NCBI GenBank assembly: GCA_021739765.1
Contig: JAIPBD010000011.1
Coordinates: 1-64,000, forward strand
Reading direction: 5' to 3'
DNA length: 64,000 bases
Source: Melioribacteraceae bacterium
GTDB taxonomy: Bacteria > Bacteroidota > Ignavibacteria > Ignavibacteriales > Melioribacteraceae
Under the pieces are notes generated by a model that was given only the letters and a program-made list of their open reading frames with translations, searched no databases and was not told the origin of the DNA. Below, piece after piece: positions 49,566-53,392 of the stretch (within the stretch, counting starts at the first letter, position 1; each line of letters begins with the position of its first letter). Both the position numbers and the translations under genes were made by a program.

Positions 49566-50717
49566 TCAACATTGATTAACCGTTTCAACCTGAGTTCGTA
49601 AATGCTTTGGTTCGCCGAGTGATTTATCGTTCTCCTTCGTAACTTCAATCTTTATTTTTGCGGAATCAACTTCATCTTTGATGTTTTTGTAAGTGTAGAC
49701 TTCGTTTTTGTAATTTCGCATAATTATGCGATCCTCATCTTGATGCAGCACATACTTTGGAAGTAAGGGAATCTTTCCACCACCACCCGGAGCATCAATA
49801 ACAAAATGGGGAACAGCCATCCCGCTTGTATGTCCGCGAAGTTTCTCCATAATTTCAAGACCTTTTTCGATTGAAGTCCGGAAGTGTTTAGTCCCTTTTG
49901 TTTGGTCTGCCATAAATAAATAATATGGACGAACACGTATGTACAAGAGCTTTTGCATCAGTTCTTTCATTACATCCGGATCGTCGTTTACACCTTTCAT
50001 CAATACCGCTTGATTATTGACCGGACAACCGGCATCCATCAACATTGAACAAGCTTTTGTGCTTTCCTCCGTGATTTCCCATGGGTGATTGAAATGGGTG
50101 TTGATGTATATCGGATGGTATTTTTTAATTACTTCGCACAATGACTTTGTAATTCTCTGCGGTAGAACACATGGCATTTTGGTTCCAAGTCGAATTATCT
50201 CTACATGCGGAATTTCCCTCAACCGTTTCAAAACTTTTTCGAGCATTACATCGGTTAACATTAAAGGATCGCCGCCGGAAAGAATAACATCACGAATCCC
50301 CGGATTATTTTCTATATAGTTGAAGGCGGATTCGAGCGATTTCATCGAAATTTTTTCATAATCTCCAACTTTTCGTTTTCTTGTACAAAAGCGGCAGTAC
50401 ATTCCACACTGTGAAGTGACAAGAAAGAGGCAGCGGTCCGGGTAGCGATGTGTAATATTAGGAACGGGACTCATGTCATCTTCGTTTAACGGATCATCAA
50501 TCCCGTCGAAATCTTCTAACTCATCAATATCCGGGATACATTGTTTCCAAATTGGATCACCGGGATAACGTATAAGACTTAAATAATAGGGATTGATCCG
50601 AGCTTGAAAATGCTCATCTAAATCTTCGGCAACCTGTCTATCCAGATTGAATCGATCCACTAATTCATCAACTGTATGAACTGAATCCCTAATTAATTGT
50701 TGCCATACTTCCATCAA
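49566..50717 (-). CDS. kamA: Lysine 2,3-aminomutase (KamA family, radical SAM)
   Basis: Converts L-lysine to L-beta-lysine with an iron-sulfur cluster, SAM and PLP. The 383-residue protein has the radical SAM cluster Cys104-x3-Cys108-x2-Cys111 (CGMYCRFC), SGGDPLML, and the PLP lysine in PGGGGK (Lys315). Two Asp that hold the lysine side chain in known enzymes appear conserved: Asp271 in YLFMADQ and Asp308 in VIDAPGG. Glutamate 2,3-aminomutases change both, so lysine is the likelier substrate. It is last in a four-gene operon with a GNAT and two ATP-grasp genes. Confidence 0.92.
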   Translation of the reverse strand: MMEVWQQLIRDSVHTVDELVDRFNLDRQVAEDLDEHFQARINPYYLSLIRYPGDPIWKQCIPDIDELEDFDGIDDPLNEDDMSPVPNITHRYPDRCLFLVTSQCGMYCRFCTRKRKVGDYEKISMKSLESAFNYIENNPGIRDVILSGGDPLMLTDVMLEKVLKRLREIPHVEIIRLGTKMPCVLPQRITKSLCEVIKKYHPIYINTHFNHPWEITEESTKACSMLMDAGCPVNNQAVLMKGVNDDPDVMKELMQKLLYIRVRPYYLFMADQTKGTKHFRTSIEKGLEIMEKLRGHTSGMAVPHFVIDAPGGGGKIPLLPKYVLHQDEDRIIMRNYKNEVYTYKNIKDEVDSAKIKIEVTKENDKSLGEPKHLRTQVETVNQC

Positions 50718-50731
50718 TTTTCCTTTTCTTT

Positions 50732-51205
50732 CTATAAGTACTTTGCGTAAATAATTAAATCATTTCCGTAATTATAAAAATCTTTAATTTTTGAAACAAT
50801 CGAATAAGAATTATTTTCATAAAATGATCTCGTGCCTATGTATTCATCCAATGAAGATGTTTCAACTAAGATTAATCTTCCATTTACTGATGCAATTTGC
50901 CCTTCACAATGCGTGAGTAAAATTTTCCCAATTCCTTTATTTTGAAATTCTTCGTCAATCGCGATCCAGTATAAATCATAAACTCCATTTGTTAAAGCGC
51001 GTGGACCATAACAATAATATCCGACTACGAAACTGTTATGCTCAATGACATAAATTGAATAATCTTCTTGATATTTATTATGAATACTCTCGTCTATTAT
51101 TTCAATTGCTACCTTTTTTTCTTCTTGAGTGAAGAGTCTAATTCCGTTAATAATTTCGACCAATCTGTTTCGGTCACTTGTCGTGCAGTTTCTGATAATA
51201 TTCAT
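50732..51205 (-). CDS. GNAT-family N-acetyltransferase
   Basis: A 157-residue protein with the acetyl-CoA binding segment DLYWIAIDEEFQNKGIGKILLTHCE (Q/R-x-x-G-x-G as QNKGIG) and the C-terminal FYENNSYSIVSKIKDFYNYG. I start it at MNIIRNCTTSD (51205); the open frame reaches 51220. It overlaps the end of the ATP-grasp gene by 32 bases and precedes kamA by 14. By analogy with AblB it might acetylate beta-lysine, but it is shorter than the AblB proteins I know and need not be one. Confidence 0.85.
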   Translation of the reverse strand: MNIIRNCTTSDRNRLVEIINGIRLFTQEEKKVAIEIIDESIHNKYQEDYSIYVIEHNSFVVGYYCYGPRALTNGVYDLYWIAIDEEFQNKGIGKILLTHCEGQIASVNGRLILVETSSLDEYIGTRSFYENNSYSIVSKIKDFYNYGNDLIIYAKYL

Positions 51206-52232
51206 TTCTATCCAACGCAAAATTCGTAAGCTGATTTATTAATTCTTCGTATGATATTCCCGCCGCCTTGCACGATCTGGCAAATCCGCTATCGATCGAA
51301 ATATCGGGGTTAGGATTGACTTCAATCACAAAAGGAATATTATCTTGGTTTACCCTTATATCGATGCGGACATAATCTCTGCATCCAAGTGCATGAAAAG
51401 CATCCACGGCAATTCTTTCGATAGTTTCTTTAAGTGAATCGGAAATTTGAGCCGGACAGGAAGGGATTGTTGATTTGTAATATTCACTTTCCGGGTCCCA
51501 TTTCCCTTCATACGTAACGATGTTTGGCAAATTTTTTGAAAGGCCTTGAAACATAATCTCTGAAATTGGGAGTACTTTATTTCCAAGAATAGCCGCATTA
51601 AATTCTCTGCCTTCAATATATTCTTCAACCAAAACATCCTGATTAAACTCTTTGAAAATATAGTTGATCTGTTTCGATAATGAATTCAAATCGAAAACGA
51701 CCGAATTTTCAGAGATTCCGATACTTGCGTCCTCGCGTGCTGGTTTTACAATTAATGGAAAATCCAACTGAATATTTGATATTTCTTTATTATTTGATTT
51801 TGTCAAATATTTATAATTAGGAGTATTGATATTAAATGATTTTAATATTTGTTTGGCCCTTTTCTTGTGCAATGAATTACCGAGGCAAATTGAAGTATTC
51901 CCCGAAAAACCATATTGCAAAATTTCTAATAAACCGGCCGCTGCAGATTCATAATTCGCGTCTCCTCCAATTGATTCAACAAAATTAATAATTGCATCCG
52001 GAGAGAAGTTTTGAATGCTTCTGCCGGTTTCAACGATATTTGATGTAAATGGAAGCAATTTGACATTTTCGAATCGTTTTAACAGCAAATCTTTTATAAT
52101 TAATAGATCGTCTCCAAAACTTGTTTCAGAAAGATCGATACTGTTTGAACCATTTGTCTCTTTACCGGTATAATTTTCGTAAAGGCAGTCGGGTTCATTA
52201 TAACAGATTAGAATCTTTTTGTTTTCTTTCAT
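51174..52232 (-). CDS. ATP-grasp ligase resembling D-Ala-D-Ala ligase (second copy)
   Basis: A 352-residue ATP-grasp enzyme. Motifs are FPLIVKPAREDASIGI (ATP-binding Lys), VLVEEYIEGREFNAAILGN, and the metal-binding end RIDIRVNQDNIPFVIEVNPNPDIS. The N-terminal lobe (KILICYNEPDCLYENYTG...INFVESIGGDANYESAAAGLLEIL) lacks the usual Ddl opening motif, and true cell-wall ligases are not paired like this. It probably joins two amino acids or amines. Start overlaps the first ligase stop (ATGA). Confidence 0.88.
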   Translation of the reverse strand: MKENKKILICYNEPDCLYENYTGKETNGSNSIDLSETSFGDDLLIIKDLLLKRFENVKLLPFTSNIVETGRSIQNFSPDAIINFVESIGGDANYESAAAGLLEILQYGFSGNTSICLGNSLHKKRAKQILKSFNINTPNYKYLTKSNNKEISNIQLDFPLIVKPAREDASIGISENSVVFDLNSLSKQINYIFKEFNQDVLVEEYIEGREFNAAILGNKVLPISEIMFQGLSKNLPNIVTYEGKWDPESEYYKSTIPSCPAQISDSLKETIERIAVDAFHALGCRDYVRIDIRVNQDNIPFVIEVNPNPDISIDSGFARSCKAAGISYEELINQLTNFALDRNEYYQKLHDK

Positions 52233-53302
52233 AACAGATTATACCTTTTCGCCGCATGAAGTAAAACTTGATTTATTAAGGCATTGTACTCAATTCCATA
52301 AGTTCGTGCAGCTTTCGGATAGCAAGAATTATCACGCGGATCTGGCAGAATTCCCGGAAGTGGGTTTACTTCTATTATGTTAGGCTCTCCGTTTTTGTCC
52401 AGGCGTACATCTATTCTACTCCAATCCTTGCAGTTTAATATTTGATATGCATCTTTTGATATTGTACGAATTTTTGATTCAAGACTTTTATCAATTTTTG
52501 CGGGACATGAATATATGTTGAGTGGATTATCAATTCTATCCAAAATCCACTTGGCTTCGTAGGAATATATTGGTGTCATCTCTTCCGGTAACTCTAAAAA
52601 ATTCAGTTCGATAATCGGCAAAACAATCAAATCGGATCCATTTCCTAGTATCGCCACAGTAAATTCTCTACCCGGCAAATATTCTTCGAGTATAATTGGC
52701 TGTTGATAATCATTTAACCTTTTTTGCACAAGTTTGGAAAGTGTTTCGGAGTCTTTCACCAATGAATTGTCAAAAATTCCTTTACTGGAGCCTTCTCCTA
52801 TAGGTTTAATAAAAAGAGGGAAATCCAATTCCAAGTTGTTCAATTCATCATGATGCCTAATGACTCTAAATTTAGGATTGGGAATATTGTGATATGATAA
52901 TATTTCCTTTGTTCTTGATTTATCGAGACAAATAGCTAAGGTCAAAGGATCGGAGCCTGTATATGGTATATTTAGAAAATCAAGCATCGCAGGAATTTGC
53001 GCCTCACGACTAATACGATTTATACCTTCGGAAACATTAAAAACGATATCAGGTTTTACCGTTTGAAATTTATCAAATGCCTTAGCATTTGCCTCAATCA
53101 TAATTACATCATGATTTTCGGCGAGCGCAGCCCTAATCGCATTTACCGTTTCTTCCGTATCCCATTCGGCAAATTTATCATTGTACTGATGCGCTTGATT
53201 AATGGAACGTTCAGAAAATTCAGCGATGAAATCGGAGGGTCTAAGATTATATGTTAACGCTACTTTAAATTTTTTATTTGTTTCTATAGTATTAAAGATG
53301 AT
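52229..53302 (-). CDS. ATP-grasp ligase resembling D-Ala-D-Ala ligase (first copy), start unresolved
   Basis: Motifs FPLFIKPIGEGSSKGI, IILEEYLPGREFTVAILGN and RIDVRLDKNGEPNIIEVNPLPGI mark an ATP-grasp ligase. The first ATG (53101) would lose the front of the N-lobe: upstream codons, open back to a TGA at 53321-53323, read KFKVALTYNLRPSDF and ETVNAIRAALAENHDVIMIEA, clearly this family. No ATG, GTG or TTG lies in that stretch. Candidates are ATC at 53302 (AAAGG five bases upstream) or ATA at 53287. Alternatively an ATG at 53324 would read in frame if one T of the TTTT at 53315-53318 were absent. I mark 53302 provisionally. First gene of the KamA operon. Confidence 0.82.
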   Translation of the reverse strand: MIFNTIETNKKFKVALTYNLRPSDFIAEFSERSINQAHQYNDKFAEWDTEETVNAIRAALAENHDVIMIEANAKAFDKFQTVKPDIVFNVSEGINRISREAQIPAMLDFLNIPYTGSDPLTLAICLDKSRTKEILSYHNIPNPKFRVIRHHDELNNLELDFPLFIKPIGEGSSKGIFDNSLVKDSETLSKLVQKRLNDYQQPIILEEYLPGREFTVAILGNGSDLIVLPIIELNFLELPEEMTPIYSYEAKWILDRIDNPLNIYSCPAKIDKSLESKIRTISKDAYQILNCKDWSRIDVRLDKNGEPNIIEVNPLPGILPDPRDNSCYPKAARTYGIEYNALINQVLLHAAKRYNLL

Positions 53303-53392
53303 TAATACCTTTGGAAAATTTCATGCAATATACGCTATTCTTGAAAAATTACAGCGATAAGGAATCGTAAAAAGTTGTAATTAATATTCGTT

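Follow-up and report, generated by a model that had tools for sequence, protein, structure and literature searches.

The beta-lysine chemistry known to us comprises an osmolyte, the modification of elongation factor P (EF-P), lysine breakdown and a few antibiotics. In the osmolyte route, encoded by ablA and ablB, a lysine 2,3-aminomutase of the KamA family is paired with an acetyltransferase of the GNAT family. The pathway to the osmolyte N-acetylglutaminylglutamine amide arrives at an acetylated dipeptide through GNAT and ATP-grasp chemistry. Here we describe a four-gene operon in a 64,000-nucleotide stretch of DNA (the window) from a Melioribacteraceae bacterium (GenBank assembly GCA_021739765.1, contig JAIPBD010000011.1, positions 1 to 64,000; contig C10 in our numbering, from a genome of 4.5 Mb in 37 contigs). 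The operon encodes two ATP-grasp ligases resembling D-Ala-D-Ala ligase (Ddl), LIG1 and LIG2, a GNAT acetyltransferase (GNAT) and a lysine 2,3-aminomutase-like enzyme (KAM). We hold it to be slightly more probable than improbable that the four genes constitute one pathway making an N-acetylated beta-lysine peptide or amide, core and carried on the stable chromosome of many Ignavibacteria, Kryptonia and their relatives.

The genes lie on the minus strand in the order LIG1-LIG2-GNAT-KAM, and the features of the operon are as follows:

52229..53302, minus strand: LIG1, D-Ala-D-Ala-ligase-like ATP-grasp enzyme, first gene; putative start ATC at 53302, alternative ATC at 53299
51174..52232, minus strand: LIG2, also an ATP-grasp enzyme of D-Ala-D-Ala-ligase type, its substrate pocket differing from that of LIG1 (NPNPD against NPLPG; PF07478, 128 bits)
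50732..51205, minus strand: GNAT N-acetyltransferase (Acetyltransf_7, 40 bits; best solved relative 2r7h, 98 bits)
49566..50714, minus strand: KAM, radical SAM enzyme resembling lysine 2,3-aminomutase; a TTG at 50717 is the alternative start
53297..53312, minus strand: Shine-Dalgarno-like AAAGG (53308-53312) with the two candidate ATC starts, 53302 and 53299

An earlier note on this DNA had described a four-gene operon with overlaps of 4 and 32 bases and a 14-base gap, and the coordinates bear this out, with all four genes found where it had put them. LIG1 and LIG2 share 4 bases (52229-52232), LIG2 and GNAT share 32 bases given the GNAT ATG at 51205, and GNAT and KAM are separated by 14 bases with the KAM TTG at 50717 or by 17 with the ATG at 50714. 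The extent that it gave, 49566..53320, holds for the gene positions; its upper limit does not, 53320 being merely the first base past the upstream stop codon. Its gene families agree with the Pfam matches, which are Dala_Dala_lig_C (PF07478) in LIG1 (126 bits) as in LIG2, GNAT domains in GNAT, and LAM_C (85 bits) and Radical_SAM (51 bits) in KAM. The asparagine-synthase-like enzyme of the N-acetylglutaminylglutamine amide pathway, which has no aminomutase, is absent from the operon, the rest of the genome not having been searched for it.

The four genes very probably form one pathway, judging by their all-or-none inheritance, which holds even where they are scattered. A search with GNAT found it in 27 of 148 genomes of a phylum sample; 26 of these loci were fetched (the window's own excluded), and 20 of the 26 carry LIG1-LIG2-GNAT-KAM in order on the same strand, with the other three genes not nearby in the remaining six. 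A LIG1 scan of genome contigs, in which 80 of 563 confirmed relatives were examined, gave the four genes in order in 76 of the 80 loci and one more (L132) with KAM in two reading frames; L064 and L124 stop at the ends of short contigs, and L126 has LIG1-LIG2 only. The two sets overlap by four duplicate pairs, and the pooled figure of 91 of 94 distinct loci in order includes 20 preselected for all four genes, which makes 77 of 80 the fairer figure. Among the 80, the nearest named relatives of LIG1 belong to records whose titles read Ignavibacteria, Melioribacter, Stygiobacter, Kryptonium or similar; the operon is present in Kryptonia loci (L117, L132 and L139) and in the strain record Stygiobacter electus 09-Me.

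Across a 395-genome phylum sample, searched at thresholds of 1e-70 for LIG1, 1e-15 for GNAT, 1e-90 for LIG2 and 500 bits for KAM, all four genes are present in 64 genomes, none in 321 and part of the set in 10, and KAM above 500 bits is always accompanied by LIG1. Gene order and co-occurrence both support the earlier note's view of the genes as one functional unit; it had named conserved order across genomes as a check and a lack of co-occurrence in relatives as a refutation, and the latter is not what these counts show. In nine of the 64 genomes (G079, G087, G125, G137, G237, G272, G280, G288 and G390, of families f15, f30 and f51) the four genes are scattered, either over several contigs or at distances of tens to hundreds of kilobases, so that co-occurrence does not rest on linkage; no other observation argues as strongly for a shared pathway as this unlinked co-occurrence. 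Among the partial genomes, G133 has a KAM match of 429 bits that covers model positions 7-273 and ends one base from the contig end, G338 is 81% complete, the LIG2 match of G047 stops at model position 277, G156 has a LIG2-type match alone, and in G362 a KamA adjoins a weaker match to LIG1.

A recG-like gene, RecG in the window, occupies the same upstream cluster position in 87 of 101 loci (not deduplicated). The operon therefore has a stable chromosomal address, and a mobile natural-product cluster is rejected on the same count; plasmid searches with the four proteins gave no operon-bearing plasmid among the matches listed. A region as stable as this might hold together genes that are neighbours only by chance. 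We find this hardly credible and have rejected it on the order counts (20 of 26 and 76 of 80) and the 395-genome co-occurrence, given that the genes co-occur in nine genomes while scattered and stand together elsewhere, once outside the phylum (L245) and once as a divergent arrangement (L197).

Comparison with characterized families supports the assignment of KAM as a lysine-type KamA. KAM matches the lysine 2,3-aminomutase structure 2a5h at 411 bits, and its scores fall under the curated cut-offs of the models for AblA (TIGR03820, 468.5 against 525.4 bits), glutamate 2,3-aminomutase (TIGR04368, 451 against 650 bits) and arginine 2,3-aminomutase (TIGR04468, 366.5 against 600 bits). Its score against EpmB, the EF-P beta-lysylation enzyme (TIGR03821), lies far under the cut-off, at 242.3 against 369.3 bits, and EpmB membership was rejected on it. 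Residue positions were mapped through an alignment to 2a5h. The earlier note had KAM keeping the residues for lysine, Asp271, Asp308 and the pyridoxal phosphate (PLP) Lys315, and these positions (274, 311 and 318 in our numbering) are indeed the same in all 21 aligned members. All 21 KAMs of the window's clade, and the AblA rows too, retain the Arg, the two Asp and the Lys that in the lysine enzyme we take to be substrate (lysine) and PLP residues; the second Asp position is occupied by Thr in the annotated arginine 2,3-aminomutase BlsG (L266) and by Cys in two rhizobial KamAs. A tree of 43 rows places KAM in a clade of 21 rows (support 100/98) that joins the window, the Ignavibacteria, the Kryptonia, the unlinked families and genomes G410, G574 and G474; the rhizobial and the arginine-type enzymes fall outside it, as do the AblA proteins of Firmicutes and Fusobacteria. 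The window's genome also encodes a second KamA-like protein (L144, C12:24508-25542), a 462-residue open frame that scores 133 bits against a family cut-off of 199.

KamA enzymes are known in lysine breakdown and in EF-P beta-lysylation, and KAM might serve one of these processes while the ligases and GNAT run a separate peptide or envelope pathway from the same operon. Other KamAs do stand without LIG1/LIG2-type ligases, as in L267, where the neighbours are epmA and efp; nevertheless, the EpmB score (242 against 369 bits), the company that KAM keeps with both ligases and with GNAT in 64 genomes of the 395, and the fact that in this sample KAM above 500 bits never occurs without LIG1 make such a division of labour very improbable.

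The earlier note had also set the operon apart from the ablA/ablB route, and this is borne out by the AblA score below cut-off, the separate KAM clade and the acetyltransferase: GNAT gave no match to AblB (TIGR03827) at E<=0.01 in NCBIfam, where the positive control L203 scored 338 bits. Membership of the classical route is rejected on these grounds, and the two ATP-grasp ligases are additional to it. Genome G345, which belongs to the window's family and lacks the operon, carries AblA (768.6 bits) and AblB (338 bits) in one run (L203) with a transporter-like open reading frame (ORF) between them. The family thus knows the classical route, and the LIG1-LIG2-GNAT-KAM operon is something else. 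A compatible solute accumulated under salt or heat stress, either a variant of N-epsilon-acetyl-beta-lysine or an acetylated beta-lysine dipeptide, would follow the KamA-plus-GNAT logic of ablA/ablB and would suit the presence of the operon in the Kryptonia, named from hot springs (PMC4737851). We nonetheless judge it rather improbable, in view of these AblA and AblB results, the true ablA and ablB of G345, the two ligases, which would be superfluous for N-epsilon-acetyl-beta-lysine itself, and record titles that include fen and groundwater, so that salinity is not the common factor (no formal test was made).

On rhizobial plasmids and on the Thioflavicoccus plasmid pTHIMO01 an aminomutase-family enzyme adjoins an ATP-grasp enzyme, as in the operon, but these are other KamA lineages and other ATP-grasp types, and no GNAT or second ligase is listed there. 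In the rhizobial loci L153 and L154 the KamA, which belongs to a different lineage and carries Cys in place of the second lysine-binding Asp, adjoins a gene annotated as biotin-carboxylase-like, which in L153 is weakly similar to the ATP-grasp ligases. In Thioflavicoccus mobilis (L059) genes annotated for the synthesis of diaminobutyrate and 2,3-diaminopropionate precede an enzyme resembling D-Ala-D-Ala ligase, which has a divergent KamA opposite it.

LIG1 and LIG2 are two different ligases, both probably active judging by their sequences, and neither looks like a D-Ala-D-Ala ligase. They share with Ddl and its relatives the fold and the ATP/Mg-binding residues, which 21 of 21 aligned members of each retain, yet both fall below the curated cut-off of the Ddl model TIGR01205 (245.65 bits), LIG1 at 168.2 and LIG2 at 140.2 bits, and both have Trp in place of Tyr216, in the Ddl numbering and with the residue roles that we assume throughout. 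LIG1 is conserved across the 21 aligned members and retains the equivalents of Ddl Ser150, Tyr210, Arg255 and Ser281, and its carboxylate-binding residues would suit an amino-acid acceptor. LIG2 retains Arg255 and differs from Ddl also at Ser150 (Ala in 20 members, Gly in 1), Tyr210 (Val or Ile) and Gly276 (Asp in 21 of 21). The best structural matches of the AlphaFold models (mean predicted local distance difference test score 89 for LIG2 and 83 for LIG1) are Ddl enzymes, identities ranging from 17 to 26% over the 50 matches listed per model, and the window's genome has a separate, better-scoring Ddl on contig C5. In a ligase tree of 85 rows LIG1 forms a clade of 29 rows with support 99; this tree was made with FastTree only, after rows of five near-duplicate loci had been dropped, and its deep nodes are weak. 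LIG2 has a solo paralogue, LIG3, which in L148 (contig C16 of the window's genome), L199 and L200 is transcribed divergently from an adjacent C39-peptidase-like gene; the paralogue of L202 has no such neighbour. An ORF beside the ligase in L190, suspected by eye to resemble gamma-glutamylcyclotransferase, had no NCBIfam match and was set aside.

The closest solved relative of GNAT, 2r7h, was deposited under the title 'putative D-alanine N-acetyltransferase', a function that is the depositor's guess. Lone GNATs outside the class were considered as a separate family and rejected, as matches to LIG1, LIG2-type ligases and KAM turned up elsewhere in the f15 and f30 genomes. In the f30 family, one of those with unlinked genes, a glutamate racemase gene comes directly after GNAT (L050, 7503-8816; L052, 7898-9320).

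In the pathway that we propose, KAM would, as we strongly infer, turn L-lysine into beta-lysine. LIG1 and LIG2, presumably derived from Ddl, would form two successive amide bonds via acyl phosphates with beta-lysine as one building block, and GNAT would acetylate either beta-lysine or the completed product on an amino group. The outcome would be a small N-acetylated beta-lysine peptide or amide. The step order, the partner of beta-lysine, the product and its role, like all substrate assignments for KAM, LIG1, LIG2 and GNAT, are predictions drawn from sequence.

Several observations weigh against this reading. The counts of 64, 321 and 10 genomes lack phylogenetic correction, and the 500-bit threshold for KAM was picked after the scores had been seen, from the gap between 514 and 467 bits. 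Genomes G385, G283, G231, G254 and G088 have a GNAT match alone at the thresholds used. The second ligase of the nine unlinked genomes is barely separable from LIG3, with near-equal scores and weak tree nodes with LIG2, and the LIG2 profile search counts LIG3 too. The last of these points comes from a second phylum, that of genome G395, to which L126 (titled as a Deltaproteobacteria metagenome-assembled genome) belongs. LIG1 was found in 8 of 8 genomes searched of the class of G395 and in 26 of 237 searched of its phylum (1e-80), of which 16 score at least 463 bits (the strong loci) and 10 score 274-291 bits (the weak loci). One to three polyamine genes lie upstream of LIG1-LIG2 in 11 of the 16 strong loci. 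The earlier note had not anticipated these genes. Since LIG1-LIG2 in those 11 loci stands beside polyamine genes and not beside KAM, beta-lysine may not be the sole or the true substrate of the ligases, and the product could be an amine conjugate rather than a plain peptide.

The strong loci with upstream polyamine genes are L126, L236-L240, L244, L246, L248, L249 and L251. Their polyamine genes were located by BLAST with the ORFs of L126, and families were assigned with hidden Markov models in L244, where they are an agmatinase, a pyruvoyl-dependent arginine decarboxylase and a member of the deoxyhypusine-synthase family; GNAT directly follows LIG1-LIG2 in six strong loci (L244, L246 and L248-L251). 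As for the other five, KAM is present instead in L245 and L247, the contig of L250 ends just upstream of LIG1, and in L241 and L242 no polyamine gene was seen upstream of LIG1, at a place masked by opposite-strand ORFs, ORFs having been chosen by length. L245, from G574, has LIG1-LIG2-GNAT-KAM in the same order as the window. The weak loci include a KamA in eight cases (L252-L256 and L258-L260) and none in L257 and L261, and in G395 itself KamA is far from LIG1 (L243). The KamA of G395 groups with those of the other weak loci in a second clade (8 rows, support 99/94). In L252, L255, L256, L258 and L260 a KamA of this second clade adjoins a gene of LIG3 type, and a few kilobases off, amid sensor- and regulator-like ORFs, there is a weaker LIG1-like gene.

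These neighbours suggest a conjugate of polyamine type, in which LIG1-LIG2-GNAT would couple amino acids to a diamine or polyamine and then acetylate it, the block being beta-lysine in some lineages and putrescine or homospermidine in others. A deacetylase fusion in the locus L247 also bears on this possibility. The histone-deacetylase family includes acetylpolyamine amidohydrolases, and in L247, from G410, a 757-residue protein adjoining LIG1-LIG2-KAM consists of a histone-deacetylase-family domain followed by GNAT as a fusion. Genome G385, of the window's own family and without the standard operon, has a divergent version (L197), in which KAM is followed in a row by genes resembling LIG1 and LIG3, then by one for a 584-residue protein and by GNAT; this protein shares 55% identity with the opening portion of the L247 fusion, and the KAM of G385 falls outside the window's KAM clade. 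The two deacetylase features are:

L197, 7540-9291: GNAT-deacetylase protein (histone-deacetylase family) of a KamA/ligase cluster
L247, 8141-10411: GNAT-deacetylase protein (histone-deacetylase family) of a KamA/ligase cluster, here fused to GNAT

A full-length relative is present in G574 on another contig. The full-length protein occurs in only 3 of the 22 genomes tried, which makes it a weak candidate for a universal fifth component. A cationic or amine acceptor for LIG2 is plausible, given the Asp that replaces Ddl Gly276 in its acceptor site and the polyamine genes of the second phylum. The operon of the window, however, contains no polyamine gene, and none was seen to recur beside the 101 loci, the rest of the window's genome not having been searched, and LIG1 retains the residues that presumably bind the acceptor carboxylate in Ddl. 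Overall, we regard a polyamine-type conjugate as unlikely, if worth keeping in mind. A bolder proposal, and one that we advance only as speculation of slightly lower probability, is that acetylated beta-lysine amides, possibly polyamine-conjugated, make up an undescribed, vertically inherited class of core metabolites, in which the LIG1-LIG2-GNAT module would take its cationic block from lysine through KAM or, in other lineages, from arginine through a decarboxylase and agmatinase, and in which a conserved AUU-type start codon of the first gene would couple the yield of the pathway to how translation initiation stands in the cell.

Each of the four enzyme families is known in itself; for their combination and the way it is inherited we have found no earlier description. 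Judged by titles and the openings of abstracts, the open-access literature searched held no description of the operon, subscription papers lying mostly outside that search; a 2009 comparative-genomics paper on ATP-grasp amidoligases by Iyer and colleagues may mention related neighbourhoods. The all-or-none behaviour of the four genes in the 395-genome sample, even when scattered, points to a chemically uncharacterised small molecule in little-studied, partly thermophilic bacteria, and the compact gene set makes the question of its product directly testable.

The last of our results concerns the start of LIG1, which appears to be a non-canonical ATC at 53302 or 53299, as suggested by homology and a Shine-Dalgarno-like site. 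In the window there is no in-frame ATG, GTG or TTG between the upstream stop and 53101, and the conserved first strand begins at about 53263. Among 83 distinct loci with a recognisable first strand (12 further loci without this anchor lie outside the survey), 53 show an in-frame ATT (41), ATC (6) or ATA (6) that a Shine-Dalgarno-like site precedes, and lack a canonical codon in such a position. The codon position is the same in 50 of these 53, and in 17 of them the stretch is without any canonical codon; the other loci comprise 1 with a canonical codon behind a Shine-Dalgarno-like site and 29 with neither. Under a nearly identical rule, applied to sets that were not deduplicated, the controls gave 77 of 88 canonical and 1 non-canonical start for KAM, 20 of 81 canonical, 1 non-canonical and 60 neither for LIG2, and 16 of 90 canonical, 5 non-canonical and 69 neither for GNAT; LIG2 and GNAT mostly overlap their upstream neighbours. 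A conserved non-canonical start of a metabolic gene would be unusual in itself, and if LIG1 does begin in this way, automatic annotation may truncate it. An AUU-started enzyme truncated in databases has a precedent in Borrelia PncA (PMC13398362). In several loci of other families a LIG1 ATG stands immediately before the first strand. In L046, L047 (identical to L131), L109, L115, L116, L128 and L133, GAAAGG is followed by TTGGTACTC, a few bases and a TGA directly before the LIG1 ATG, and the leader of L130 has a similar layout in other letters.

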